From: a virus
Reading direction: 5' to 3' (one strand)
Length of the DNA: 22,065 nt
Virus record (IMG/VR): IMGVR_UViG_3300033153_011402
Location: 1-22,065 of that record
Shown: in pieces, positions 9,309 to 20,921 of the stretch
Numbering within the stretch: the first letter of the stretch is position 1
Layout: every line of letters starts with the position of its first letter
Program-made: the position numbers and the translations under genes
The notes under the pieces: generated by a model
Database searches by the model: none
The model's input: only the letters and a program-made list of their open reading frames with translations
Told to the model about the DNA's origin: nothing

Positions 9309-11066
9309 TTAGGCAGCAACTTCTTGCTCAATAACGATCGCCGAATACAACCGGGTCAAACAACCGGAGATACGAGTTTCCAACAGATATTTGTACTGGT
9401 TATAATCGATGTCAAAGTCATCGAACATAGTCGTTTGGCCACCCTTATCGGCACCAATGGTATAATCTTTCAAGTTCACAACGATGGCCTTCAGGGTGTA
9501 CTCAGTTGCGTCTGGAGTACGAGAAAGACCTTCCATCAAAGGAACCTCAATCACTCTCGAAACACGCAGAGCTGCAGCCAGTTCACCAACCGTCTTATAC
9601 AAACGATGGCCAAGAGTGTCTTTTTGCAGAAGTAGTTCGGTGAGTGTCGTTGGTGCCACAAAAGCTACTGGGTTACCAGATCCTTTGTATGTGGCTCGAG
9701 CTTCGATGAAGGCATCCGTGAGATCTTCGACATCATCGGTCGGACCCAATTGATGCTTGATCGTATAAGCATCATCATCTGTATAGATGGGGCGCACATT
9801 GGTTTCAACGATCTTATAGTCTGAACTAACCAGACGACCATCCGAAATGAGTACTGCACGGGCAATTTCTTCATCCAGCATCATTCGCATTTCCATCTTG
9901 AGCCAAGCAACGACATCCATCGTAGTGACATCAATGATGTCATCGCGATCCAGTTTCTGCTTCTTATAGATGGTCTGCGGGGTAGTAACACGCTTAGCAA
10001 GGGCGATTACTTCTTCGACCTTGAGATCGCCAGTCACATAACCCAGGGCACGAGCCTCTTCTGTGGTGAGATCCACCGACATACTTTTAATCCGGGAAAA
10101 TGGTGAGTGATGCGTACCACTCATAACAGAGCCCACCCATTCAGTATCACGTTTGTACAGATCTGGGGTTGGTCGAATTGCCTTTGCATCCGGGAACAGA
10201 TAATCCATGTTATCAATACCGTACGTGCCAGCGTGAGCCACAAACGCATCCATGGCATCATGGGCAATCACGGACTGCTTGAGTGAACCGTACTTGTTCA
10301 TAGCATCATCGATGATGATTTTAAAATCATCATGGCTCAAAGTCGGTTCCTCAGTCTCCAGTGTGGACTGATCAAATACATTTTGTTTCATAATTCTATT
10401 ATTACCTCCAAGGTCAGAGTGTTCTGCATCGTCATCGCCGCCCGACATAAGTTCGGCGATCATAGCATAAACTACGTTCTTCTGTTCTTCAGTCATGCTG
10501 TCAAAAATTCCACCAACGGTTGCATCGTCATCGGCATGCACAATGTCATCATCGTCATCGTCGTCTGCATGCTCGAGGTCATCATCGTTAGATGATGAAT
10601 CCAGATTGAGACCTGAATAAATTATAGCTTCATCTTCAAGATCAGTCTGCGTTCCATCGGAATGCACAATTGATACATTATCGATCAATGCTCCAGGATT
10701 AGCTCCGGAAAGGACCAAACTAATTTCCTTGATGACGCCATGAACAACATCCTTTCCTTTCTGAACTAATTTATTTGCATAAATCGATAAATCGGTTATA
10801 TCGCCATGAGTAACCAACGTTTTTGCATTCGTTCCAGCTGGAGAATCATTTAGATAACAATACACATATACACCATCTTTACGGTTCTCCAAAAGAGCAT
10901 GTCCAAGAACATTATCTGGAGTATCATGCATATGCTGCCATACCAATGGCACTTTTTGACCATCATTATCTTTAAATGCATCACGACGAATAACTCGACC
11001 GTCACCGCATTTTAGATTGTTCTTAGTGGCATAACCACTAAAATCGGCTTTTTTACGTTTTGCCAT
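9309..11066 (-). CDS. Fused prohead protease and HK97-fold major capsid protein
   Basis: One 585-residue frame joins two normally separate genes. Residues 1-150 match an HK97-type prohead protease (peptidase U35): VPLVWQHMHDTPDNVLGHAL with H45 as likely catalytic histidine, DITDLSIYANKL with S94 as likely nucleophile, and VIKEISLVLSGANPGA. Residues about 156-220 are an acidic linker with a run of aspartates and a helix (MTEEQKNVVYAMIAEL). Residues about 226-585 are the capsid protein: N-terminal scaffold-like arm, then WVGSVMSGTHHSPFSRIKSM, LTTEEARALGYVTG, YKKQKLDRDDIIDVTT, and the C-terminal P-domain-like part with VAFVAPTTLTELLLQ. Protease-capsid fusions are known in other phages. ATG 11066 has AAAGG upstream. 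An internal ATG with GGAGGT upstream may also yield capsid alone. Confidence 0.9.
   Translation of the reverse strand: MAKRKKADFSGYATKNNLKCGDGRVIRRDAFKDNDGQKVPLVWQHMHDTPDNVLGHALLENRKDGVYVYCYLNDSPAGTNAKTLVTHGDITDLSIYANKLVQKGKDVVHGVIKEISLVLSGANPGALIDNVSIVHSDGTQTDLEDEAIIYSGLNLDSSSNDDDLEHADDDDDDDIVHADDDATVGGIFDSMTEEQKNVVYAMIAELMSGGDDDAEHSDLGGNNRIMKQNVFDQSTLETEEPTLSHDDFKIIIDDAMNKYGSLKQSVIAHDAMDAFVAHAGTYGIDNMDYLFPDAKAIRPTPDLYKRDTEWVGSVMSGTHHSPFSRIKSMSVDLTTEEARALGYVTGDLKVEEVIALAKRVTTPQTIYKKQKLDRDDIIDVTTMDVVAWLKMEMRMMLDEEIARAVLISDGRLVSSDYKIVETNVRPIYTDDDAYTIKHQLGPTDDVEDLTDAFIEARATYKGSGNPVAFVAPTTLTELLLQKDTLGHRLYKTVGELAAALRVSRVIEVPLMEGLSRTPDATEYTLKAIVVNLKDYTIGADKGGQTTMFDDFDIDYNQYKYLLETRISGCLTRLYSAIVIEQEVAA
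10389..10409 (-). promoter_or_regulatory. Possible internal ribosome binding site and start for capsid protein alone
   Basis: Within the fused frame, GGAGGT at 10404-10409 is followed after 12 bases by an in-frame ATG at 10391 (residue 226, reading MKQNVFDQSTLETEE). This falls exactly at the junction between the protease linker and the capsid domain. The spacing is longer than ideal, so initiation may be weak. If used, it would give a 360-residue capsid subunit without protease. Confidence 0.45.
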
Positions 11067-11096: not shown

Positions 11097-12317
11097 TCAC
11101 TCTTCTTTATCAACCGGAACGGGGTCTGTCTTTTCCTCTTCTTCTGGCTGATTAAGATTTTTATTGACAAGTTCATCTGAACGAGGATCCTTATTGGGTT
11201 TATAACCAACAACAGCTCTTAATTCGTTTGAACTGAGTATCTCATTACGAGTGAATTTATCTGCAATCTCGGCCAAATCTGAAGCCGGTACAAGCTTAAA
11301 CGGGTTACGAAAATAACCAATCGATTGTCCTTGCGTTCGTCCTGTCCGTGTAAGAAATGTTCTTCTAAAACTATCAGCAATAGAATCTAATATCGGTTCT
11401 ATTGTCCGACTATAGTAATTTAGCATTTCTTGTTCGCCCGCTGTTCCATCAAATACGCCTTCTGTCATACCTAACTGGCTATATAGCATTCTAGTTAGAA
11501 ATTCGATTTGACCCATTAGATTGTTTTCTACAGGACGATTAAGTTGTGTGATCTTTTCAGTACCATCCGCATAGGCGATACCATATTTAGATCCTGCTAA
11601 TTGCTCAGCAATTTCTGTTCGACGCAAATTGGCTTGTTCTAAACGTCGAGTAGACTTCACAACGTAAGGTAACTGAATAATTAAATCCAATTTTCCCGAA
11701 CCGGATTGTGTATCTATAGCATCCAAAAGATTAAGCTTATAAATTAATCGTTTCAAGGTAGAGTTTGGTGTATTCATTATAGCATATAATGGATTCTCTA
11801 TAATCGCCACCATTTTCTTCTCTAATGTTATCTCTTCTGGGATGCCTCGCTTTTCATTATATAACGAAAGACGAACGTGTTTCGGATACCATTCTATAAC
11901 TTTAGCTGTCCGCATTGATAAAATATCGTACGAAGCAGACTTGCTAGGATTTATCGAAGTCTCTACCGGTACAACTGCTATGACGCCCTCATCACACATA
12001 GACATGACTATATCTTGTAAAAAAGCCCGTCCGGTTTGATCGATATTTGCAGATAAAGTTAAACATCGATGTAGACCTGACAGAATAACGTCTTCAAATC
12101 TATTATTCTCGTCTACTCTAATGTGCTTAACATTAACCGCTGCTACATCAATAGCTATCCTGTTATATATAGAAGCGATAATAGATTGCTCATTACCCAC
12201 CTCTAAAACTACACGATCTGGCCGGGAACTATAACTTGGACCTATATTATATGGAAGATATTTGTCAGCACCACTAAAAGCACTCCATGCGTGACGAAGT
12301 CTATCCGTAATTCGCAT
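11097..12317 (-). CDS. Portal protein (HK97-type)
   Basis: The 406-residue product is the likely portal, the twelve-subunit ring at one vertex through which DNA enters and leaves. Residues 1-70 contain ITDRLRHAWSAFSG and SIYNRIAIDVAAVNVKHIRV; 200-320 hold the helical wing/stem section with LEQANLRRTEIAEQLAGSKY, GIAYADGTEKITQLNRPVEN, RMLYSQLGMTEGVFDGTAGE and YYSRTIEPILDSIADSFRRT. The crown section has FTRNEILSSNELRAVVGYKP followed by NKDPRSDELVNKNLNQ, a standard portal ending, and then an acidic tail. It lies directly before the protease-capsid gene, with a strong AAAGGAGG site before ATG 12317. Two HYG-motif genes separate it from the accessory cassette. Confidence 0.9.
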   Translation of the reverse strand: MRITDRLRHAWSAFSGADKYLPYNIGPSYSSRPDRVVLEVGNEQSIIASIYNRIAIDVAAVNVKHIRVDENNRFEDVILSGLHRCLTLSANIDQTGRAFLQDIVMSMCDEGVIAVVPVETSINPSKSASYDILSMRTAKVIEWYPKHVRLSLYNEKRGIPEEITLEKKMVAIIENPLYAIMNTPNSTLKRLIYKLNLLDAIDTQSGSGKLDLIIQLPYVVKSTRRLEQANLRRTEIAEQLAGSKYGIAYADGTEKITQLNRPVENNLMGQIEFLTRMLYSQLGMTEGVFDGTAGEQEMLNYYSRTIEPILDSIADSFRRTFLTRTGRTQGQSIGYFRNPFKLVPASDLAEIADKFTRNEILSSNELRAVVGYKPNKDPRSDELVNKNLNQPEEEEKTDPVPVDKEE

Positions 12318-12329
12318 GTAACCTCCTTT

Positions 12330-12893
12330 CTAAAGATTTATACGTAGTTTTCCGATCTCAACCATCATGTTATAAGATGGTTTTTTGTATGCTTGCTCTA
12401 ACGCGATTTGTGCCTTTTTAGATGCCGTTTCTGCTTTTTTTCTACTCGCTGTCGACTGTTTAGCAATATATGCGGCCGTTTTTTGCTTTCTGATATCCGA
12501 CCCCAATACCTTAGCCGCATCACTCGCGTAAGTTTTTATATGCTTTTTATACTCAGCCATAGCCTTAGCCGCCTTCGCAGTTTTACCTTTTTTAGCTAAT
12601 TTTACAGCTTCGGTTTTATATTCATTAGCTAACATATTCCATTCGTCAACAGACGCTTTTTGAAGCCGAACATTTCGACTAGCTCTTTTTTCTCCCTTTA
12701 TTGCTTTTCGTTCACTTCTTTTAGCTTTACTGAGCGCGGCACCGGTCGAAGAGGCTGTTCCTTCAGCGTTGTATTTCTCCTTAAAATTCTTTCTCAAAGT
12801 CGAACGTTTAGCCGATCTCACCCCCCACCTCATACCTTTGACTCCGTAATGAGCTAAATACTTCGCTATCGTTTCTTCTTGATATGTTCTCAT
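12330..12893 (-). CDS. Basic phage protein with N-terminal HYGxKGMxWGxR motif (copy 3)
   Basis: A 187-residue, strongly basic protein of unknown function. Residues 15-26 read HYGVKGMRWGVR, a motif I recognise from the N termini of many Firmicutes phage proteins in head gene clusters. The rest is rich in K, R and A with long predicted helices (for example ALSKAKRSERKAIKGEKRAS and ASRKKAETASKKAQIALEQA) and likely coiled-coil character. It ends EIGKLRINL. ATG 12893 has AAAGGA upstream. It follows another HYG-motif gene by ten bases and precedes the portal by twelve. Basic, helical and next to the portal fits an internal head protein, scaffold-associated cargo or ejected protein, but no enzymatic signature is visible. 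Confidence 0.7.
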   Translation of the reverse strand: MRTYQEETIAKYLAHYGVKGMRWGVRSAKRSTLRKNFKEKYNAEGTASSTGAALSKAKRSERKAIKGEKRASRNVRLQKASVDEWNMLANEYKTEAVKLAKKGKTAKAAKAMAEYKKHIKTYASDAAKVLGSDIRKQKTAAYIAKQSTASRKKAETASKKAQIALEQAYKKPSYNMMVEIGKLRINL

Positions 12894-12903
12894 ATGCAGT
12901 CCT

Positions 12904-13530
12904 TTACTCTTTAAATTTTAAATCGATAACTTTAGGATCCGATAAAATTCTATCACCGAAATCACGATACGCTTTTTCTGAATCCGTCCTTTTAACTATA
13001 CGGTTCGCCTTTAACAAAACAGCAGCAGTTGCCGCAGCTTTTACAGCCTTATCCGCAAATAATATTTTTTGCTCTGGAGAAATTCTATACTTTTTAATTC
13101 CCGTTTTTAATTCTCCTGATGCAGCATACCGCTTTGAAACATTTCTAGATAGTGCATCGTCTTTTAACGTCTTAATTATTGATGTAACTGCAATTTTGCC
13201 AACTTTTTTAGCAATTACTGGCGAAGGTGCCTTACGATATAAATATGCTAATTTCTTGGGATCCATTCCCGCCGTCACTAAATCCTTAAATATTGCTATA
13301 GCAACTTGGCCTCCTACTTTCGATCCTAATCGTGTAGCAAGACTTTGACTATGATATTTAGCTAAGGCTTTATCTTTTCTATGCTTAGCACCCGTTGAAA
13401 TGGCCTTAGCTTTCAATCTAGAAGACGCATATTTACTACGTTGTTGACCATATGTCTTTCTAATCCCCCATTTCATGCCTTTGGTACCGTAGTGACGAAG
13501 TCCTACTTTTTCCTCTATAATAATAGGCAT
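12904..13530 (-). CDS. Basic phage protein with N-terminal HYGxKGMxWGxR motif (copy 2)
   Basis: This 208-residue protein starts at ATG 13530 (MPIIIEEKVGLRHYGTKG...). A GTG twelve bases further upstream is in frame but overlaps the AAAGGAGGT ribosome binding site, so I reject it. Residues 13-24 read HYGTKGMKWGIR, followed by a long K/R-rich body with helices and a few hydrophobic stretches (GGQVAIAIFKDLVTAG, KIAVTSIIKTLKDD, AVKAAATAAVLLKANRI). It ends DPKVIDLKFKE, similar to the end of copy 1 (VMLKFK). Function is unknown; the charge and place beside the portal suggest an internal head or DNA-associated protein. No known domain beyond the motif is visible. Confidence 0.7.
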   Translation of the reverse strand: MPIIIEEKVGLRHYGTKGMKWGIRKTYGQQRSKYASSRLKAKAISTGAKHRKDKALAKYHSQSLATRLGSKVGGQVAIAIFKDLVTAGMDPKKLAYLYRKAPSPVIAKKVGKIAVTSIIKTLKDDALSRNVSKRYAASGELKTGIKKYRISPEQKILFADKAVKAAATAAVLLKANRIVKRTDSEKAYRDFGDRILSDPKVIDLKFKE

Positions 13531-13562
13531 AGAAGCAATCACCTCCTTTATTTATACAAATA

Positions 13563-14537
13563 TCAGAAGGCTGAACCGATAGTAATTCGTCTCCAGTTAG
13601 CATCAGCTATCGTGTTTACTGCCGTCAATAGATACAAATATGTATCGTCAATCAACAACTGATTCCGAATACCCACTGTGCCATCAATGCCACCAGCTAA
13701 AGCTTCAACTGCACCAGTATATGCACCATTGGTCAGCGTTTCTTCTACGGCAATATCGTTACCTGCAACTCCCGCTATATCAGCTGTCAAATCGACAGTA
13801 TCACCAGTACCATCTACTCCAGCAACACCTTGTGTATCTTCGGCGGCCATAGCAGTTGCTAATGCTGTGATTGCGTTAGCAGCTGTACAATCAGCACCTG
13901 ATCCAAGAGTTCCTGCAGCAAAGACGTTACCATCATCATCAAAAGTCTCTGTTGTAGCAATTGAATCCGCATCAGTACCCCCGACAAGAGCTGTAATCAC
14001 ACTATCGTCACCGCCAAAGGCAGCTGCGGAAACTGTTGGATGAGCGGTATTGAACTCATCATCGCCATTGATAGCATCTACCAGGTTTGCTTGCGCGCCC
14101 GCGGCATCTGCACCAATATCAACTTCACCATCAGCGGTAGCTGTTCCTACTGTCACAAAAGTATAAACCTTCGCATCTATCGTCAATGTATCCCCTGGAA
14201 TCGGTTGCGTAGCCATCGACAACGTTCCTGTCGAATGCGTCGTATCTGACTCGATATCAACTGGAATATTCGCTGGATCCGTTGGATCTTGACTCACTGT
14301 GGACAGAAACTCATACACATCAGTTAGTGCAATTAGAGGATTATCGAATGTAACTGTCTCTTCATGCAATACAACACCTGTAACTTCCAACACCGCAGCA
14401 GCATTAACTGCATTAACCGGCGTCCCAGTAGCTACACTCTCAATCAATTCACTAAACAACGTACCAAAACCCATTTGTATTGTTTTGTGGTTGAGTCTAT
14501 TAAGTGCAACAATTTCTTTCGTGGTCAAACTTCTCAT
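13563..14537 (-). CDS. Fibre- or decoration-type structural protein, modular, low complexity
   Basis: A 324-residue acidic protein rich in A, T, D, G and V, almost without cysteine. After a helical N terminus (about 1-35, with LTTKEIVALNRLNHKTIQMG) it shows related beta modules: around 44-85 (AAVLEVTGVVLHEETVTF then DVYEFL), around 100-190 (STGTLSMATQPIPGDTLTID then KVYTFV) and around 200-285 (GDTVDLTADIAGVAGNDIAV then ETL and LAGGIDGT). Similar modules occur in phage fibre and decoration proteins. The end, with IDDTYLYLLTAVNTIADANW and RRITIGSAF, resembles a short C-terminal element of some phage fibres. AAAGGA precedes ATG 14537. It is probably exposed on the virion; head or tail cannot be decided from sequence. 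Confidence 0.6.
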   Translation of the reverse strand: MRSLTTKEIVALNRLNHKTIQMGFGTLFSELIESVATGTPVNAVNAAAVLEVTGVVLHEETVTFDNPLIALTDVYEFLSTVSQDPTDPANIPVDIESDTTHSTGTLSMATQPIPGDTLTIDAKVYTFVTVGTATADGEVDIGADAAGAQANLVDAINGDDEFNTAHPTVSAAAFGGDDSVITALVGGTDADSIATTETFDDDGNVFAAGTLGSGADCTAANAITALATAMAAEDTQGVAGVDGTGDTVDLTADIAGVAGNDIAVEETLTNGAYTGAVEALAGGIDGTVGIRNQLLIDDTYLYLLTAVNTIADANWRRITIGSAF

Positions 14538-14572
14538 AGTTTATTCCTTTCTACTTCCATTTTGACTAGTTA

Positions 14573-14884
14573 CTACAGTTCATCCGTACGTATCTCGCAG
14601 ACAGTACTTTTCGTCTGATTCGCTATGCTGCCTGTTGCACGAAGGATGTATGTAGTATTTCTGGTTAGACCAATTACCAGTGGCGTTACTATCTTATCCC
14701 CATCTAATGAGGGTATACCATCTAATAGGGTACTTGAAAGATCGTTATCCGGATCCGATTTAAGATGTATGTCAACCAGAGGTGCTGCTGGTGTGCCCCA
14801 CCTAGCAAAGTTCATAGCATATTGAACTTTTTCATTCGGACCCTGAGACTTTGGACTTTCAACTACAACTCGTTCAGAACTCAT
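14573..14884 (-). CDS. Small Ig/Fn3-like phage structural protein
   Basis: A 103-residue protein of a family I have seen as unnamed in phage structural clusters. It begins MSSERVVVESPKSQGPNEKV and continues with YAMNFARWGTPAAPLVDI, then strands around STLLDGIPSLDGDKIVTPLV and GLTRNTTYILRATG and ends CEIRTDEL. The strand spacing and the xLTxxTxYxLxA pattern fit an Ig or fibronectin type III-like beta sandwich, a fold common in decoration and fibre proteins. AAAGGAGGT stands close upstream of ATG 14884. It lies between the 958-aa repeat protein and the fibre-type protein, so it may join or cap the same structure. The exact role is unknown. Confidence 0.6.
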   Translation of the reverse strand: MSSERVVVESPKSQGPNEKVQYAMNFARWGTPAAPLVDIHLKSDPDNDLSSTLLDGIPSLDGDKIVTPLVIGLTRNTTYILRATGSIANQTKSTVCEIRTDEL

Positions 14885-14900
14885 TAATTAACCTCCTTTA

Positions 14901-17777
14901 TTATCTATCATAAGGAACATCCAATTCGGTGTTACGTTCACGAACTACTAAATCAGTATCACGTTCACGAACTACTAATTCTGTTGAACGAGCTTTTACA
15001 GTCAAGGGCACTCTTCTAAAGTCTACAAACCAGTATAATGTAGTTTTATCTACAACGGGAATACCTAATTCAACATCTTCACCAAGTAGGTTGAATAATT
15101 GACCGATTACACCTTTATCAATTACTAGAATACCAAAATAGATAGATTGTCCAGACAATTGGTTAATAACTTGAGTGAGAGTACTTTTGTCTACTACAGG
15201 AACACCGTAGTTAACCTCGTCTCCTAGTAGTTCAAATACCTGTCCAAGCGTACTTTTATCTATTATAGGAATACCATAGTCAACATCATCCCCAAGTAGT
15301 TCAAATACCTGTCCAAGAGCGCCTTTATCAATTACAGGAACACCATAGTCAACATCGTCTCCGAATAATTCGAATACCTGCCCTAGCGCACTTTCATCTA
15401 TTACAGGTACACCGAAGTCAACGTCATCTCCAAGCATTTGATTTGGTGCCAGTTGATAGATCATCGGTTTGTCTATAACCGGTACACCGTAGTCAACATC
15501 GTCTCCGAATAACTCAAATACCTGTCCGAGAGTACTCTTGTCTATTACAGGCACACCGAAGTCAACATCGTCTCCGAGTAGTTCGAATCCCTGCCCTAGC
15601 GCACTTTCATCTACTACAGGTACACCAAAATCAACATCGTCTCCAAGTAATTCGAATACTTGTCCAAGAGCACCTTTATCAACTACAGGTACACCGAAAT
15701 CAACATCGTCTCCGAGTAACTCAAATATCTGACCAAGGGTACTTTCGTCTATAACAGGTACACCAAAATCGACATCATCTCCTAGTAACTCAAATATCTG
15801 ACCAAGGGTACTTTTATCGATTACAGGTACACCGAAGTCGACATCGTCTCCTAACATCTCATTTGGTGCTAATTGATAGATTGTTGTTTTATCCACCACA
15901 GGTACACCGAAGTCAACATCGTCTCCTAATAACTCAAATATCTGTCCAAGAGCCGTTTTGTCTACTACAGGTACACCGAAGTCGACGTCGTCTCCAAGTA
16001 ACTCAAATATCTGTCCAAGAGTGCTTTTGTCGATTACAGGTACACCAAAGTCGACGTCGTCTCCAAGTAACTCAAATATCTGTCCAAGAGTGCTTTTATC
16101 GATTACAGGTACGCCAAAATCGACATCATCTCCTAGTAACTCAAATATCTGTCCAAGAGCCGTTTTGTCTACTACAGGTACGCCAAAATCGACATCATCT
16201 CCTAGTAACTCAAATATCTGCCCAAGAGTACTCTTGTCTATTACCGGTACACCGAAGTCAACATCATCTCCTAGTAACTCAAATATCTGTCCAAGAGTGC
16301 TTTTATCGATTACAGGTACACCAAAATCGACATCATCTCCTAGTAATTGATTTTCAGATGATTGTCCTAACACAGCCTTATCGACTACCGGTACACCAAA
16401 GTCAATATCATCACCAAGTAATGTTCCTATTGGTCCTATATATGCATCGTCATCACGAATAATCGCCTCATCGATATAATATTCGCCGGTTGCACTCGCT
16501 GGCCATGCCCCCGCTATCCCGAAGTAATACCTATAACTTTCACGCACTCTATCACGGTTACCAATATCAGATACCACTTCTTGCGAAACGTCGCCAATCC
16601 ACCATTGACCGTAGCCATCATCAGCTCCAGGCGCACTTTCACGCACAATCAAAAATTCATACCATTTCGCTCCTACCAGATCTTTGTAGGTACCTACATG
16701 GGTTCCACTTTCATCGTCGTAAAATATAGGTCTGATTTGTAACACTCCACTATTATTGTATACCTGAATATAATACAGGTATCCTGATGGAGAGTAAATA
16801 TTTCCAAATGATGTGCCTTGGCCGACCGTTGCAATGGCAAAAGTATTGACATCCAAATACCATCGCAGTCTAACGGCATTACTGAGAACTAGGATATCCG
16901 CACCGACATATTGATTGCCTATATTAATTTCTAAACCGAAGCCCGTCCCACCTAAACCGGCATCCGCTAAAACGGGAGGGTCACCAACATCATAGTCCCA
17001 AGCTAATTTATCTCCACTGTCAAAACCATCAGAAAATAGCACTCCACTTGATTGACTTAAATCACTCTTGTCTATAATAGGTACACCGTAGTCAACGTCA
17101 TCTCCCAACAGAATGTTTAGAGCTCCTTGTCCTAAAACAGCCTGGTCTACTACGGGTACACCAAAGTCAACATCATCTCCGAATAACTCAAATATCTGTC
17201 CGAGAGCACTCTTGTCTATTACGGGTACGCCGTAGTCAACATCATCTCCGAGTAGTTGATTTGCGTCCGCCTCTGTTGTGAGATCAACTCCAAGCGTTCC
17301 TCTCGATGCGTCAGCTGTAACGTCCCACAATTCAAATCCAAATATGGTTTCTTTTGGTGCACCACTGTCAACTTGAATAGCAAACCATAGTTCAGTTTGA
17401 TACTCATCGGGTAAATTAACGGCATCACTGTTTGCGGTACCCTCAATTTGCTCACCGTCTTGCCTTGTGTCATCCCCTTGACTGTCACATATTTGGTCAC
17501 CGACTACTACTGGATCTCCGTTAACTAAGTCCGTAGCACCAAATTTGATATTACCTGTCGCGGCAATTGCACTAAATCCGCCACCATCTTGATTAAAATT
17601 TAATCGATATTGTGCGTTTAAAGTATCTTTGCCTCCAGAATTAATGTTGAGAGCTATAACATAATTAGTGCCAAGTACCACGTCGCTTAATCCGACATTA
17701 TCCGCTTGAGATAGATCGACTAAAACGGCACTTAATATCCTTGAACCACCTAAATTAACATAATAATCCTGAGCCAT
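14901..17777 (-). CDS. Large repeat fibre-like protein with inserted lectin-like domain
   Basis: The 958-residue acidic protein has four parts. Residues 1-172 form a beta-rich domain (YRLNFNQDGGGFSAIAAT, ELWFAIQVDS). Residues 175-245 hold three copies of a 23-residue repeat with consensus LLGDDVDFGVPVID followed by KSTLGQIFE. Residues 246-452 look like a concanavalin/LamG-type jelly roll, opening FSDGFDSGDKLAWDYDV and containing KWYEFLIVRE and YYIDEAIIRDD. Residues 453-914 carry 20 more repeats, and residues 924-958 form short charged repeats (TELVVRERD). Repeats of xxxFGxPxxDxxxLxQ type occur in other phage proteins, without a known role. AAGGAGG lies 10 bases before ATG 17777, which overlaps the upstream stop by one base. 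I infer a long virion fibre or surface adhesin with the lectin-like domain as possible glycan binder. Confidence 0.65.
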   Translation of the reverse strand: MAQDYYVNLGGSRILSAVLVDLSQADNVGLSDVVLGTNYVIALNINSGGKDTLNAQYRLNFNQDGGGFSAIAATGNIKFGATDLVNGDPVVVGDQICDSQGDDTRQDGEQIEGTANSDAVNLPDEYQTELWFAIQVDSGAPKETIFGFELWDVTADASRGTLGVDLTTEADANQLLGDDVDYGVPVIDKSALGQIFELFGDDVDFGVPVVDQAVLGQGALNILLGDDVDYGVPIIDKSDLSQSSGVLFSDGFDSGDKLAWDYDVGDPPVLADAGLGGTGFGLEINIGNQYVGADILVLSNAVRLRWYLDVNTFAIATVGQGTSFGNIYSPSGYLYYIQVYNNSGVLQIRPIFYDDESGTHVGTYKDLVGAKWYEFLIVRESAPGADDGYGQWWIGDVSQEVVSDIGNRDRVRESYRYYFGIAGAWPASATGEYYIDEAIIRDDDAYIGPIGTLLGDDIDFGVPVVDKAVLGQSSENQLLGDDVDFGVPVIDKSTLGQIFELLGDDVDFGVPVIDKSTLGQIFELLGDDVDFGVPVVDKTALGQIFELLGDDVDFGVPVIDKSTLGQIFELLGDDVDFGVPVIDKSTLGQIFELLGDDVDFGVPVVDKTALGQIFELLGDDVDFGVPVVDKTTIYQLAPNEMLGDDVDFGVPVIDKSTLGQIFELLGDDVDFGVPVIDESTLGQIFELLGDDVDFGVPVVDKGALGQVFELLGDDVDFGVPVVDESALGQGFELLGDDVDFGVPVIDKSTLGQVFELFGDDVDYGVPVIDKPMIYQLAPNQMLGDDVDFGVPVIDESALGQVFELFGDDVDYGVPVIDKGALGQVFELLGDDVDYGIPIIDKSTLGQVFELLGDEVNYGVPVVDKSTLTQVINQLSGQSIYFGILVIDKGVIGQLFNLLGEDVELGIPVVDKTTLYWFVDFRRVPLTVKARSTELVVRERDTDLVVRERNTELDVPYDR
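14904..15008 (-). repeat. Short 9-residue charged repeats at the end of the repeat protein
   Basis: The last 35 residues of the 958-aa protein read as four units of about nine residues: LTVKARS, TELVVRERD, TDLVVRERN, TELDVPYDR. At DNA level two 27-base units at about 14935-14990 are nearly identical. Arginine/acid alternation suggests an interchain salt-bridge or assembly tail. Confidence 0.7.
15036..16421 (-). repeat. Twenty tandem copies of a 69-base coding repeat, with nested triplets
   Basis: Units 4-23 of the 23-residue repeat in the 958-aa protein. Most units are 69 bases; four are longer by one to two codons (including two ending in IYQLAPN before an M-initial next unit). Units 5-7 and 8-10 repeat the same order of variants (VIDKST, VIDKST, VVDKTA), so a 207-base block has itself been duplicated. 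Central units are almost identical in DNA, while units 21-23 are diverged. Confidence 0.9.
17043..17255 (-). repeat. Three further copies of the 69-base repeat, before the lectin-like domain
   Basis: Units 1-3 (residues 175-245) share the LLGDDVDYGVPVID core with the main array but are separated from it by about 620 bases encoding the lectin-like domain. The array is thus split, either by insertion of the domain or by repeat expansion on both sides of it. Confidence 0.85.
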
Positions 17778-18091
17778 TAGGCATTAACCTCCTTATAGCT
17801 AATAGTGCAATTCGGTATTTGTCGCTGTTCCATTGATACGCAACAAAACCATGGACGTTCAACACCCAAGCTACACAAATTATGTTCATTTAGATGCGGA
17901 CATCCAACCTTTCTACAACAATCACCACATCTACTACATCTGGCAGTTTTCACTCTCCAAATATCATTCCAGGGTTGATACATAGCCATGTGTTCTCCGC
18001 CCCACATGATATGGATACCCTGTTCTTCATACCACTCGTCTGGAAGTTCAAACTCATGACGGTTTCCTCTGAACTCCACTGTGAATTTCAT
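17777..18091 (-). CDS. Small CxxCxxCC (YkgJ-like) metal-binding protein
   Basis: A 104-residue protein with nine cysteines, all in the C-terminal half: C52, C55, C58 and C59 (CSRCGDCC), C64, C73, C83, C84 and C95. The order CxxCGxCC, then CPHL, then CSLGVERP, then CC matches the putative zinc- or iron-chelating CxxCxxCC domain (YkgJ family, once named after the flagellin methylase FliB). The N-terminal 45 residues are strand-rich (MKFTVEFRGNRHEFELPDEW). No ribosome binding site is visible; the ATG follows the upstream stop by one base, and its own stop overlaps the start of the repeat protein by one base, so it is tightly coupled on both sides. Function is unknown; a metal site that modifies or stabilises a structural protein is possible. 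Confidence 0.7.
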   Translation of the reverse strand: MKFTVEFRGNRHEFELPDEWYEEQGIHIMWGGEHMAMYQPWNDIWRVKTARCSRCGDCCRKVGCPHLNEHNLCSLGVERPWFCCVSMEQRQIPNCTISYKEVNA

Positions 18092-18092
18092 G

Positions 18093-18467
18093 TTATGCTG
18101 CTGGATTCGGGAATTCGCAGTCCAAAGCGTCCAATGTAAACGGACTTCCGGTAACTATTGCCACTAAAGCCGTAAGCTCTTGTGCCACTTGTAATACGGA
18201 AAGACTATCATCTGCAAGACACCACCAGGTAGCATCACCAGCAGCATCCACAACACCATCCGTAATCGCTGAGACAATTAATTTACGCCCTGAAACGTCA
18301 CCAGCTTGGGGATTCGAAATGGTTGGCGTCGCCTTTGTACCTAATTTATAGGTCGCAATATCGGCAAACTCTGTCGGTTCAGCTGACAAAATATACAGGT
18401 TTTCATTATCATCTTTGATCGCTTGCAAAGATACATCTTGGTACTTATCGTCAAGATATGCTGCCAT
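18093..18467 (-). CDS. Small phage structural-type protein of unknown function
   Basis: The 124-residue product begins MAAYLDDKYQDVSLQAIKDD and carries the pattern LYILSAEPTEFADIATYKLG, TISNPQAGDVSGRKLIVSAI, TDGVVDAAGDATWWCLADDS and a C-terminal LDALDCEFPNPA. I recognise this as a widespread unnamed phage family, usually found next to fibre or decoration genes, predicted as a compact beta protein. It opens the cassette between large terminase and portal. AAGGAG lies ten bases before ATG 18467. Its stop is one base from the next start, so it is probably made together with the CxxCxxCC protein and the repeat fibre. A virion component is likely; more cannot be said. Confidence 0.55.
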   Translation of the reverse strand: MAAYLDDKYQDVSLQAIKDDNENLYILSAEPTEFADIATYKLGTKATPTISNPQAGDVSGRKLIVSAITDGVVDAAGDATWWCLADDSLSVLQVAQELTALVAIVTGSPFTLDALDCEFPNPAA

Positions 18468-18486
18468 AATATGTTTACTCCTTATA

Positions 18487-20229
18487 CTAAAGATAATGTT
18501 CTTTATTTAATTTATAAGCAACGAAAGCATCCATCAATGACGCGACATTATCAATCTTGGCTTCGTGTCTCTTTTTGAATAACTTTCGATTTCCGTTCGT
18601 ATCCTCTAAAGTTATGGCGTTACCCATAGCATACATCATGAGCGCTTCATCAAATCTAAGCATTCTCTCAGCTGCTAAAATCTTTATCTCTCCTAGAGGA
18701 ACTGACTCGGTTTTTGCACCTTGAATTACTTTTTCAAGTCCATATGGTCCATTTTCTAACTCCCATCGCTCCATGAATTCTCGAGCATTATAAGGATCGT
18801 AACCAAAACTTCTAACGTCATATCCTTTATCCTCAATATACGCATCTATGTCATCGTATACTTCCATCATGTCCAATATTGTCCCTTCTAGCACTTGTAA
18901 ACTACCTTCTGCCAGAAATTCTTCATATTTTAATCTAGACGCAACTGGTAACTTCATCAAAGTTAAATCTGTAATATACGACCGGTTTTTTACACCAAAT
19001 GTACCATCATTCAATGGAAATAAGAAAGTGAATGCACAGAAATCATCACCCTGAGAAAGGTCTGCTCCCAAACCACAAACCATATTCCAAAAATCTTGTT
19101 TACGATGGGGAATAGTCTCTTCATAAGTGAAGAAATACGTATAACCTTCCATTGGGATTCCGAATCTTTTCGCTAGAATATCGTTCCTTGTAGCTGGAGC
19201 ATTCTCTGCTCGCTCTACATCTAACTGATATGTTTCATATGTAACGGTTTTGCCAAGGTTCGGATTCGCTTTCACCCACATCTCAGGATCACCGACTTCC
19301 TGAACATCATCTAACTTATAATACCAAATAGAAACATGTGGATTAACATACTTGCCATTCAAAATATCCATTAATTCTAGCTTAATAGTATCCCCACTAC
19401 TGTTTCTAACTGTGCCTTCAGAACTCATCGCGACAATAAGATAATCTTCCATCTTAGATGCACCCTGTTCTATAGCGCCGACAACGTCCTCACGAATATC
19501 ACCAGATAACCATTCATCAACCGTACTAACTTTAGGCCTTAGTCCCTGTAACTTATCAATGGTCATAGGTCTAACTTCTAGTATAGAGCCAGTTAAAAAA
19601 TTCTCTATACCCTTTTTAGTTGATGCTAGTTTCACGCGTTTCGCGCGCGAGCCCGTAGTGTTTTGTAAAGATCCTTCGGTTAAAAATTTAAATAAAGGAC
19701 CTCTACTCCGCACTACAGCAGTTCTAATCGGGGACATAACTTCTTCGGCTTGCTTCATTGTTGGCGCAGTTGTAATCTGATGAGTTGTTGATGTGTCTAC
19801 ATTTAGAAAATAACTCTGAATGCAAGAGCCATACATAGACTTTGCCGCTCCTCGAGCAACAATTAAATATTGTTTGTTAGTTAGCCTCTTCCTTATGGTC
19901 TTCCGAATATAACGACCACCATGACCAGTATCTAAAGGCTCATAAACACTTCGTTCAACGAAGTAGTACCAGCCAAAAATATGTTCGGCCCATAACTTAA
20001 ACGAATCTAATAATGCTAAATCCGAACCATCGGTTAACGTTAATTCAGTCTCACAATATTTTATAAACCCTTCTACTGGCTTATCGTCATAATACATTGC
20101 TGGGTTGGCGATTAGATCATCAATTCGATTCATCTCTAATGAGATTTCTCTATTAATTGGAACCTCACCACGTACAACTGCGTCACGAAATATACCATAA
20201 TAAATTGGCGTTGCTTTGTTAGAAATCAT
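18487..20229 (-). CDS. terL: Terminase large subunit
   Basis: The 580-residue protein is the packaging motor, with ATPase and nuclease domains. The ATPase has a Walker A-like VARGAAKS at 124-131 (lacking the classical GxGKS form but usual for phage terminases), the adenine/arginine section ITTAPTMKQAEEVMSPIRTA, a Walker B with catalytic acid in STVDEW (D238, E239), and a coupling motif near YLIVAMSSEGT (263-273). The nuclease domain shows GADLSQGDDF (D390), RSFGYDPYNA (D478) and KIDNVASLMDA (D560, D567), the acidic residues expected to bind metal. Size and layout fit the Terminase_1 type. A GGGAG site precedes ATG 20229. It is separated from the putative small subunit by four genes, more than usual. 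Confidence 0.95.
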   Translation of the reverse strand: MISNKATPIYYGIFRDAVVRGEVPINREISLEMNRIDDLIANPAMYYDDKPVEGFIKYCETELTLTDGSDLALLDSFKLWAEHIFGWYYFVERSVYEPLDTGHGGRYIRKTIRKRLTNKQYLIVARGAAKSMYGSCIQSYFLNVDTSTTHQITTAPTMKQAEEVMSPIRTAVVRSRGPLFKFLTEGSLQNTTGSRAKRVKLASTKKGIENFLTGSILEVRPMTIDKLQGLRPKVSTVDEWLSGDIREDVVGAIEQGASKMEDYLIVAMSSEGTVRNSSGDTIKLELMDILNGKYVNPHVSIWYYKLDDVQEVGDPEMWVKANPNLGKTVTYETYQLDVERAENAPATRNDILAKRFGIPMEGYTYFFTYEETIPHRKQDFWNMVCGLGADLSQGDDFCAFTFLFPLNDGTFGVKNRSYITDLTLMKLPVASRLKYEEFLAEGSLQVLEGTILDMMEVYDDIDAYIEDKGYDVRSFGYDPYNAREFMERWELENGPYGLEKVIQGAKTESVPLGEIKILAAERMLRFDEALMMYAMGNAITLEDTNGNRKLFKKRHEAKIDNVASLMDAFVAYKLNKEHYL

Positions 20230-20243
20230 GACGCTCTCCCAAC

Positions 20244-20582
20244 TTACTTGAATTTAAGCATAACGTTAAGCAGGGCCGTTGAAATAGCCTTCACTTGCGT
20301 TGGAAATTGTTTCGTGGCATAGTTAATCGCTACTTTTGTAGCTATAGATGTCAACACCACATCAGCAAGTTTTTTTCCTTTTCTAATGCTTCCGCCTTTT
20401 AAAGCCTTATAATCTTTCTCCAATCGCATACGCTTAATTGCTGAAGTCAATTCTTTATCGGATAACTGTTTAGTTTTTTTTCCCTTCGCTCGAGAAAGAG
20501 GACGACGATCTGAACTCGAAGAGCTCTTACGAACTCCCCATTTCATGCCTTTGGTACCGTAATGTTTAACAATTTTAGCCAT
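20244..20582 (-). CDS. Small basic phage protein with N-terminal HYGxKGMxWGxR motif (copy 1)
   Basis: A 112-residue basic protein. Residues 7-18 read HYGTKGMKWGVR, followed by a serine/arginine/lysine-rich linker (KSSSSSDRRPLSRAKGKKTK), a helix (DKELTSAIKRMRLEKDYKAL), and a hydrophobic C-terminal helix region (LADVVLTSIATKVAINYATK) ending VMLKFK. AAGGAGAG stands six bases before ATG 20582. It lies between the gp6-like connector and large terminase, while its two relatives lie beside the portal. The body does not resemble theirs except in charge and in the ending. Function unknown; see the findings on this motif. Confidence 0.7.
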   Translation of the reverse strand: MAKIVKHYGTKGMKWGVRKSSSSSDRRPLSRAKGKKTKQLSDKELTSAIKRMRLEKDYKALKGGSIRKGKKLADVVLTSIATKVAINYATKQFPTQVKAISTALLNVMLKFK

Positions 20583-20585
20583 ACA

Positions 20586-20921
20586 TCACTCTCCTTCCGC
20601 AATGACATTTAACCGCCACTCCAGTTCTTTAATGACTTCTTGCAATGCATTGATACCGAAAGAAGTTGCTGGTGGATCAAATAGTAAACGAACCTTAGCC
20701 ACCATGTATGACTTTGCTGCGTTAAGATCGACATTGGTTTCCATGAATGTGGTCCACAGGTCCTGATTACTTGTTATAGTAACCGGAATGTTCGGCCCTA
20801 CATCAAGTTCGTGTAATGTCGAGAATACGGTATTAATGTGCATAACCAAATCGGCGTCAAAAGCAACTTCAAAAATATCAACTCCTAAAGCTTGTTTGAC
20901 ACTATCTAGTATGCTATCCAT
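20586..20921 (-). CDS. Head-tail connector (gp6-like)
   Basis: The 111-residue product has the all-helical pattern of gp6-like head-tail connectors that attach below the portal: MDSILDSVKQALGVDIFEVA, FDADLVMHINTVFSTLHELD, VGPNIPVTITSNQDLWTTFM, then LNAAKSYMVAKVRLLFDPPA, a proline break, and a last helix LQEVIKELEWRLNVIAEGE. The conserved FDxDLxMHINxVFxxLxxLxVGP block is the best identifier. It usually sits after the capsid gene; here it is upstream of the large terminase. The ATG follows the stop of the SH3-like gene by one base; AAAGGAC inside the end of that gene may act as ribosome binding site. Confidence 0.75.
   Translation of the reverse strand: MDSILDSVKQALGVDIFEVAFDADLVMHINTVFSTLHELDVGPNIPVTITSNQDLWTTFMETNVDLNAAKSYMVAKVRLLFDPPATSFGINALQEVIKELEWRLNVIAEGE

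Follow-up and report, generated by a model that had tools for sequence, protein, structure and literature searches.

A short tag on unrelated phage proteins opens with the predicted cleavage triplet of the phage's own prohead protease and may address cargo to the head

Why should three phage proteins with unrelated bodies carry nearly the same dozen residues near their N termini? The question is raised by a 22,065-base virus record, IMGVR_UViG_3300033153_011402, which we analysed at its full length (the window). An earlier note on this DNA had described genes for three K/R-rich proteins of 112, 208 and 187 residues (copies 1, 2 and 3) that share the motif HYGxKGM[KR]WG[VI]R, and had read it as an address or docking signal, for example for loading into the prohead or for binding the portal or capsid. 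The three genes, all on the minus strand, lie where the note had placed them (Table 1). With a probability of roughly three in four, judged from sequence comparison, we propose that the motif belongs to a tag which the head-assembly machinery would read as an address to the prohead.

The motif is shared by the three proteins far beyond what chance could explain. In pairwise BLASTP, copy 3 matched copies 1 and 2 over the motif only, in agreement with the statement that the bodies do not align, and the predicted isoelectric points (pI) of 10.3–10.8 bear out the basic composition. A six-frame scan revealed no fourth copy of the tag in the window. The motif corresponds to the Pfam family DUF7211 (PF23847; curated cut-off 27 bits), which was matched by copy 3 (43.4 bits, E 2e-11) and copy 1 (33.7 bits, E 2e-8), with copy 2 slightly below the cut-off (24.1 bits, E 2e-5); the function of the family is unknown, as the note had said of the motif. 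The 12-residue core described there stands, while its extent does not: the conserved unit begins two residues earlier, at [LIV]-x-H, and reads in full [LIV]-x-H-[YHF]-G-[VI]-K-G-M-[KR]-W-G-V-R, with K at the [KR] position in the consensus. Among 429 distinct copies from the gathered loci, the residue two before the H (P3 in protease notation) is L or I in 94% and L, I, V, M or F in 98%, P2 is free, P1 is H and rarely Q or E, and P1' is Y, H or F in 91%. The tag lies within the first 40 residues in 85% of tagged proteins.

The body of copy 1 is that of a widespread family sharing the conserved helix LSxxELxxxxxRMxLExxY; copy 1 represents the C-terminal part of this family. Many relatives have a 2H phosphoesterase ahead of the tag and others do not, so that the tag and tail form a separable module. 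For copies 2 and 3, no body relatives were found in the sets searched. In an AlphaFold2 model of copy 1 the tag is unstructured and the remainder helical, which speaks against the motif being part of a shared globular domain, one of the conditions that by the earlier note would have refuted its reading. For copy 2 the ATG at 13530 is the most likely start, because the upstream GTG overlaps the ribosome-binding site.

We found that the tag travels with one particular head protein. Using tblastn over 50,697 phage records, the tag was detected in 241 and the window's fused prohead protease and major capsid protein (the fusion) in 244, with a nearly equal host breakdown for both: Arthrobacter (95), Gordonia (55) and Streptomyces (54), followed by Lactococcus, Curtobacterium, Rhodococcus, Microbacterium and Faecalibacterium. 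The fusion is present in 30 of 36 tag-bearing records; of the other six, three have other head types, one is a likely chance match and two are short (a fragment of 16 kb and a contig of 4 kb). Conversely, all 22 annotated fusion phages have a tagged gene, and in loci chosen by the fusion only, 123/123 tag copies are on the same strand as the fusion and upstream of it. For five fusion loci that seemed to have no tag, a search of the whole record found it in both records longer than 30 kb and did not find it in the three of 17–20 kb. Mapping of neighbouring genes placed the tagged genes of the fetched phages between connector and portal, with the exception of a saliva phage (L130) in which they lie further downstream.

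In the fusion, an acidic linker joins a protease domain to an HK97-fold capsid domain. It scores above the cut-off for Pfam PF04586 (S78; 23.9 bits against 21) and below that of the NCBIfam equivalog TIGR01543 (30.8 against 59), and its AlphaFold2 model matches HK97-fold capsids (Foldseek E 7e-9); no close solved structure was found. Much of the linker is predicted with low confidence, with a better-predicted helical hairpin within it. Across 141 distinct fusion linkers, the pattern [LI]xH[ASDG] was observed 515 times, compared with 36 in shuffled sequences (z 73). Two spacing controls, [LI]..H and [LI]H, were depleted (0.44x and 0.35x), as was [LI]xH in the mature capsid domain (0.65x). H directly precedes the conserved capsid start in 113 of 120 fusions, nearly always as [LIVM]xH, with a spacer of 0 or 4 residues between the two; the corresponding H278 of the window protein is conserved at 90% or above. 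In the linker sites, P1' is A, S or G in 68%.

The simplest reading of these patterns is that the fused protease would cut after [LIV]-x-H. The prohead proteases of T4 and SPN3US use the same P3-x-P1 format, with a small or aliphatic P3, a free P2 and a fixed acidic P1. The consensus of the T4 enzyme is L-x-E. The SPN3US enzyme recognises A-x-E (PMC10052503). The tag opens with a triplet, [LIV]-x-H, that matches the sites in the linker and at the capsid boundary, a point absent from the earlier note. Candidate peptides for the protease would be LAH/AGTYG in the capsid-site form (a slash marks the predicted cut) and LAHYGVKGMKWG in the tag form. Two 33-bp direct repeats at 10523–10588 encode the linker stretch DDDDDxVHADD, so that protease sites may multiply via DNA duplication. 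In six relatives (G018, G033, G034, G039, G040 and G042) the match to the fusion runs through one or two stop codons, which suggests split genes or recoding in some relatives. An apparent excess of extra protease sites in long leaders was weak, came mainly from the 2H phosphoesterase family and was dropped.

A motif search in which the H could be replaced by K, Q or E revealed tags in phages with other heads. The second head type has a different terminase, portal, protease and capsid protein and no fusion; the start of its capsid protein shows two conserved LRE sites, SFRRLRE/[SA]... and RLRE/ANAES, and its tags read LREFGVKGMKWG, LREYG, LQEHG and others. One protease of this type is itself tagged. 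The third type is represented by one phage with a different protease and capsid set (PHROG 207 and 138) that looks T4-like; its capsid protein reads VSLNE/QGVPQRLQE/D and its tags ALNE/YGVMGMKWG and GLNE/MGVKGMKWG. Tag P1 is H or Q in 399/399 copies from fusion phages, a set partly biased because one search required H, and E in 14/14 copies from the other two head types. In loci chosen by the fusion alone it is H in 113/113, and a family search free of the H bias found no H copies on the six E-bearing contigs. Across the three head types, the tag triplet is the predicted consensus of the phage's own prohead protease, [LIV]xH or LxE.

The proteins that bear the tag are diverse. With the tag masked, 489 tagged proteins fell into 201 body clusters, 168 of them singletons. 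Recognizable domains include GNAT acetyltransferase, 2'-5' RNA ligase/2H phosphoesterase, papain-fold glutamine deamidase, ADP-ribosyltransferase, InPase joined to topoisomerase IB, and PI3/4-kinase. Some portals are tagged near the C terminus, and in the usual portal orientation these tags would face the head interior. Together, some 200 unrelated bodies, co-occurrence with the fusion, the position of the tagged genes and first residues that covary, across three unrelated head types, with the predicted cleavage site before the capsid domain (the capsid pro-site) favour the proposal of an address or docking signal for prohead loading. Enzymes resembling 2H phosphoesterases or RNA ligases stand ahead of the tag, between connector and terminase, at L125:14111-15727, L132:2234-3799 and L133:4095-5807, and are candidates for injected RNA-repair or counter-defence enzymes. 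Arthrobacter phage Sporto gp8 (L134:5302-6366), annotated as an amidase, is a tagged papain-fold glutamine-deamidase-like protein.

From the shared tag, gene context, L-x-H grammar, pro-site covariation and body diversity we infer packaging, a docking partner, tag cleavage and injection as follows. Tagged proteins would be cargo inside the head. As the prohead assembles, their tag would dock on the protease-scaffold portion of the fusion, either on the protease domain through its substrate-like L-x-H or on the helical module of the acidic linker, and docking would keep the basic cargo within the shell. By cutting behind L-x-H, both within the linker and ahead of the capsid domain, the protease would release the shell, and it would probably also cleave the tag at the H–Y bond, so that YG-x-KGMKWG becomes the new N terminus. 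The basic bodies would then remain with the packaged DNA. That the H or E of the tag is a P1 residue recognised by the protease we consider probable, whereas the chances that the tag is actually cut appear about even. Injection with the DNA would be the likely purpose, because the bodies of relatives include enzymes suited to a newly infected cell, and we see the arrival of cargo in the host as evenly poised.

The helical module of the linker is a possible receptor. It spans 26 residues (TVxDVFDtLtEEQKNVVYxMIGxALE), and 138 of 141 fusions have it, almost without exception within the linker. In 22 annotated phages, module copy number (0–5) rises with the number of tagged genes (1–9; Spearman 0.82), which is suggestive only because the 22 phages are related. 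That the module is the receptor of the tag is a tentative proposal, which we hold as somewhat less probable than its converse. The sole non-fusion open reading frame carrying the module, at L019:1359-2570 on the minus strand, encodes a tagged protein that starts with it.

Several points weigh against a prohead address that is recognised and cut by the protease. Q at tag P1 occurs in fusion phages whose capsid site stays H, so that strict H-to-Q covariation within the fusion lineage fails. The other head types amount to six contigs with capsid pro-sites that are themselves inferred, and p values overstate the evidence because copies inside one lineage are non-independent. The module correlation was computed without correction for kinship. 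Lactococcus phage 1706 gp07, which has two tags and counts in favour as a named structural protein, bears that name by record annotation only. Finally, the tag may be bound yet cut slowly or not at all, because its P1' is Y, H or F where the linker sites have A, S or G.

This last difference is also the main argument for the closest alternative, in which the tag is a true packaging and docking signal that is left uncut, a substrate mimic that binds the protease or the linker module and serves as a tether only. The downstream KGMKWG, more conserved than any cleavage consensus requires, points the same way. However, P1 tracks the capsid pro-site across head types, suggesting active recognition over mere tethering, and we regard the uncut tether as a credible but less probable explanation. 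Alternatively, the tag could be a cleavable leader only, with basic DNA-binding or coiled bodies driving head entry; this would suit both the pI above 10 of the window bodies and the N-terminal placement of the tag (first 40 residues in 85%). Cleavage needs just L-x-H, however, whereas KGMKWG past the cut is nearly invariant and is retained on portals and enzymes, which makes a mere leader improbable. We consider it similarly unlikely that the choice of H or E at P1 is a habit of lineage unlinked to the protease, with a coincidental resemblance to the capsid pro-site. There are three head types only, with related copies within each; yet P3 and P1 agree in all three, the third has the exact LNE triplet, and the bodies within a type are mostly unrelated, hence the residue is carried separately by each. 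Binding of the motif to portal or terminase, aiding DNA packaging or motor assembly, would fit the grouping of tagged genes between connector, terminase and portal, but is very improbable, and with it the portal partner that the earlier note had allowed for, as the tag outlasts changes of terminase and portal family, certain portals are themselves tagged and P1 tracks the capsid pro-site instead. The prohead address is our preferred reading.

Table 1. Head-module features of the window (aa, amino acids; pLDDT, predicted local distance difference test; a slash marks a predicted cut)
Feature	Position	Strand	Remarks
Fused prohead protease (S78) and HK97-fold major capsid protein, 585 aa	9309..11066	(-)	Pfam S78; PHROG 3270, E 4e-210
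Predicted capsid maturation site, V276-A277-H278 / A279-G-T-Y-G-I-D-N	10233..10241	(-)	
Acidic low-confidence linker, aa 151-278	10233..10616	(-)	predicted sites include LEH/ADD, IVH/ADD, AEH/SDL, LSH/DDF, IAH/DAM
Helical hairpin module TVGGIFDSMTEEQKNVVYAMIAELMS, aa 183-208	10443..10520	(-)	AlphaFold2 pLDDT rises here
Portal protein	11097..12317	(-)	Pfam Phage_portal, PHROG 12
Tagged protein copy 3, 187 aa, adjoins portal	12330..12893	(-)	tag 12816-12851 HYGVKGMRWGVR; L-A-H precedes YG
Tagged protein copy 2, 208 aa from ATG	12904..13530	(-)	tag 13459-13494 HYGTKGMKWGIR; L-R-H precedes YG
Large terminase	18487..20229	(-)	Pfam TerL_nuclease, PHROG 9
Tagged protein copy 1, 112 aa	20244..20582	(-)	tag 20529-20564 HYGTKGMKWGVR; V-K-H precedes YG
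Head-tail connector	20586..20921	(-)	Pfam Phage_connect_2, PHROG 4247

The head module of the window runs in the order HNH endonuclease, connector, copy 1, large terminase, several accessory genes, copies 2 and 3, portal and fusion, which places the copy 1 gene between those for connector and large terminase. A 958-aa protein (14901–17777) has a 23-residue unit, LGDDVDFGVPVIDKSTLGQIFEL, repeated in tandem about 17 times; the underlying 69-bp DNA repeat occupies 15178–16346. A small cysteine-rich protein (CSRCGDCC...C; 17777–18091) lies between terminase and portal and had no match in Pfam, PHROGs or NCBIfam.

Other short tags were observed after or near [LI]xE in the T4-like phage, L269 (7508–10645 and 14048–16600, minus strand). 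A tag of the GTSEGAKKGWETRG type is found there on three proteins, two reading IHE and LHE and the third VFES, and an 850-aa protein carries LLE/YGTPESGNWGHAGRPNEVGGS. Sequences of the GTSEGAxKGWETRR type turn up again in many viral contigs besides this one and are possibly additional address tags. Both GHAGRPGxxGGS and GTSEGAKKGWETRG stand right after or near L-x-E in one T4-like phage. One could imagine a general 'protease site plus address' code in which KGMKWG, GTSEGAKKGWETRG and GHAGRPGxxGGS would be interchangeable post-cleavage tags, only the protease residues would be re-spelled in each phage to suit its own protease, the number of docking modules in the linker would set cargo diversity and the cargo would be injected host-takeover or counter-defence enzymes; we hold this generalization as speculative and rather doubtful.

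If the prohead-address reading is true, DUF7211 gains a concrete, testable role, and a readable tag lists the internal cargo of phage heads from sequence alone. Cleavage sites and the N terminus of the mature capsid protein could be predicted for a large group of phages of Arthrobacter, Gordonia, Streptomyces, Lactococcus and gut bacteria, and many uncharacterised enzymes would be flagged that may enter the host with the DNA. The reading also suggests that the tag could be transferred to other proteins to load them into phage capsids.

How does this arrangement compare with known systems? DUF7211 describes the same 25-residue motif, with copies 1 and 3 over its cut-off; a literature search for DUF7211, PF23847 or GMKWG found nothing relevant, and as far as we searched, both the L-x-H grammar and the way it covaries with head type are additions to what is described for this family. 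Encapsulin cargo-loading peptides likewise load unrelated cargo into an HK97-fold shell by means of a short peptide, which differs in being usually C-terminal, in involving no protease and in serving a cellular compartment rather than a phage head. Among polyvalent proteins, InPase and ADP-ribosyltransferase domains are predicted to be packaged and injected (PMC5512222), and both domains are tagged here; that paper names no KGMKWG tag, and most tagged proteins here are small. In SPN3US, the protease gp245 cuts after A-x-E with a preference for serine at P1', and its sites are repeated in the propeptides of capsid, portal and ejection proteins; the protease consensus is different from ours, and the passages of that source used here mention no comparable shared address tag (PMC10052503).

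The closest parallel is T4, in which a short conserved N-terminal tag, the capsid-targeting sequence (CTS), on the highly diverse bodies of IPI–IPIII directs these proteins into the scaffolding core (PMC3012670), and in which internal proteins are injected with the DNA, some of them blocking host defence (PMC12373910). In both cases one short conserved N-terminal tag is found on unrelated bodies (here 201 clusters) and includes a likely prohead-protease site, cut by gp21 in T4 and recognised here by sequence only. The systems differ in that the S78-type protease here is fused to the capsid protein and its consensus is L-x-H, not L-x-E, that conservation lies mostly past the cut and that the bodies include large enzymes. 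Since the likeness is one of description, with no T4 sequence compared, the tagged proteins are not classed as members of the T4 type, and a resemblance of copy 3, at its start, to the T4 CTS was given no weight. The tag, its protease consensus and the re-spelling of that consensus across head types are undescribed in the literature searched, whereas the class of mechanism is known from T4; we conclude that the tag would be functionally like the T4 CTS, with no kinship between them detected.

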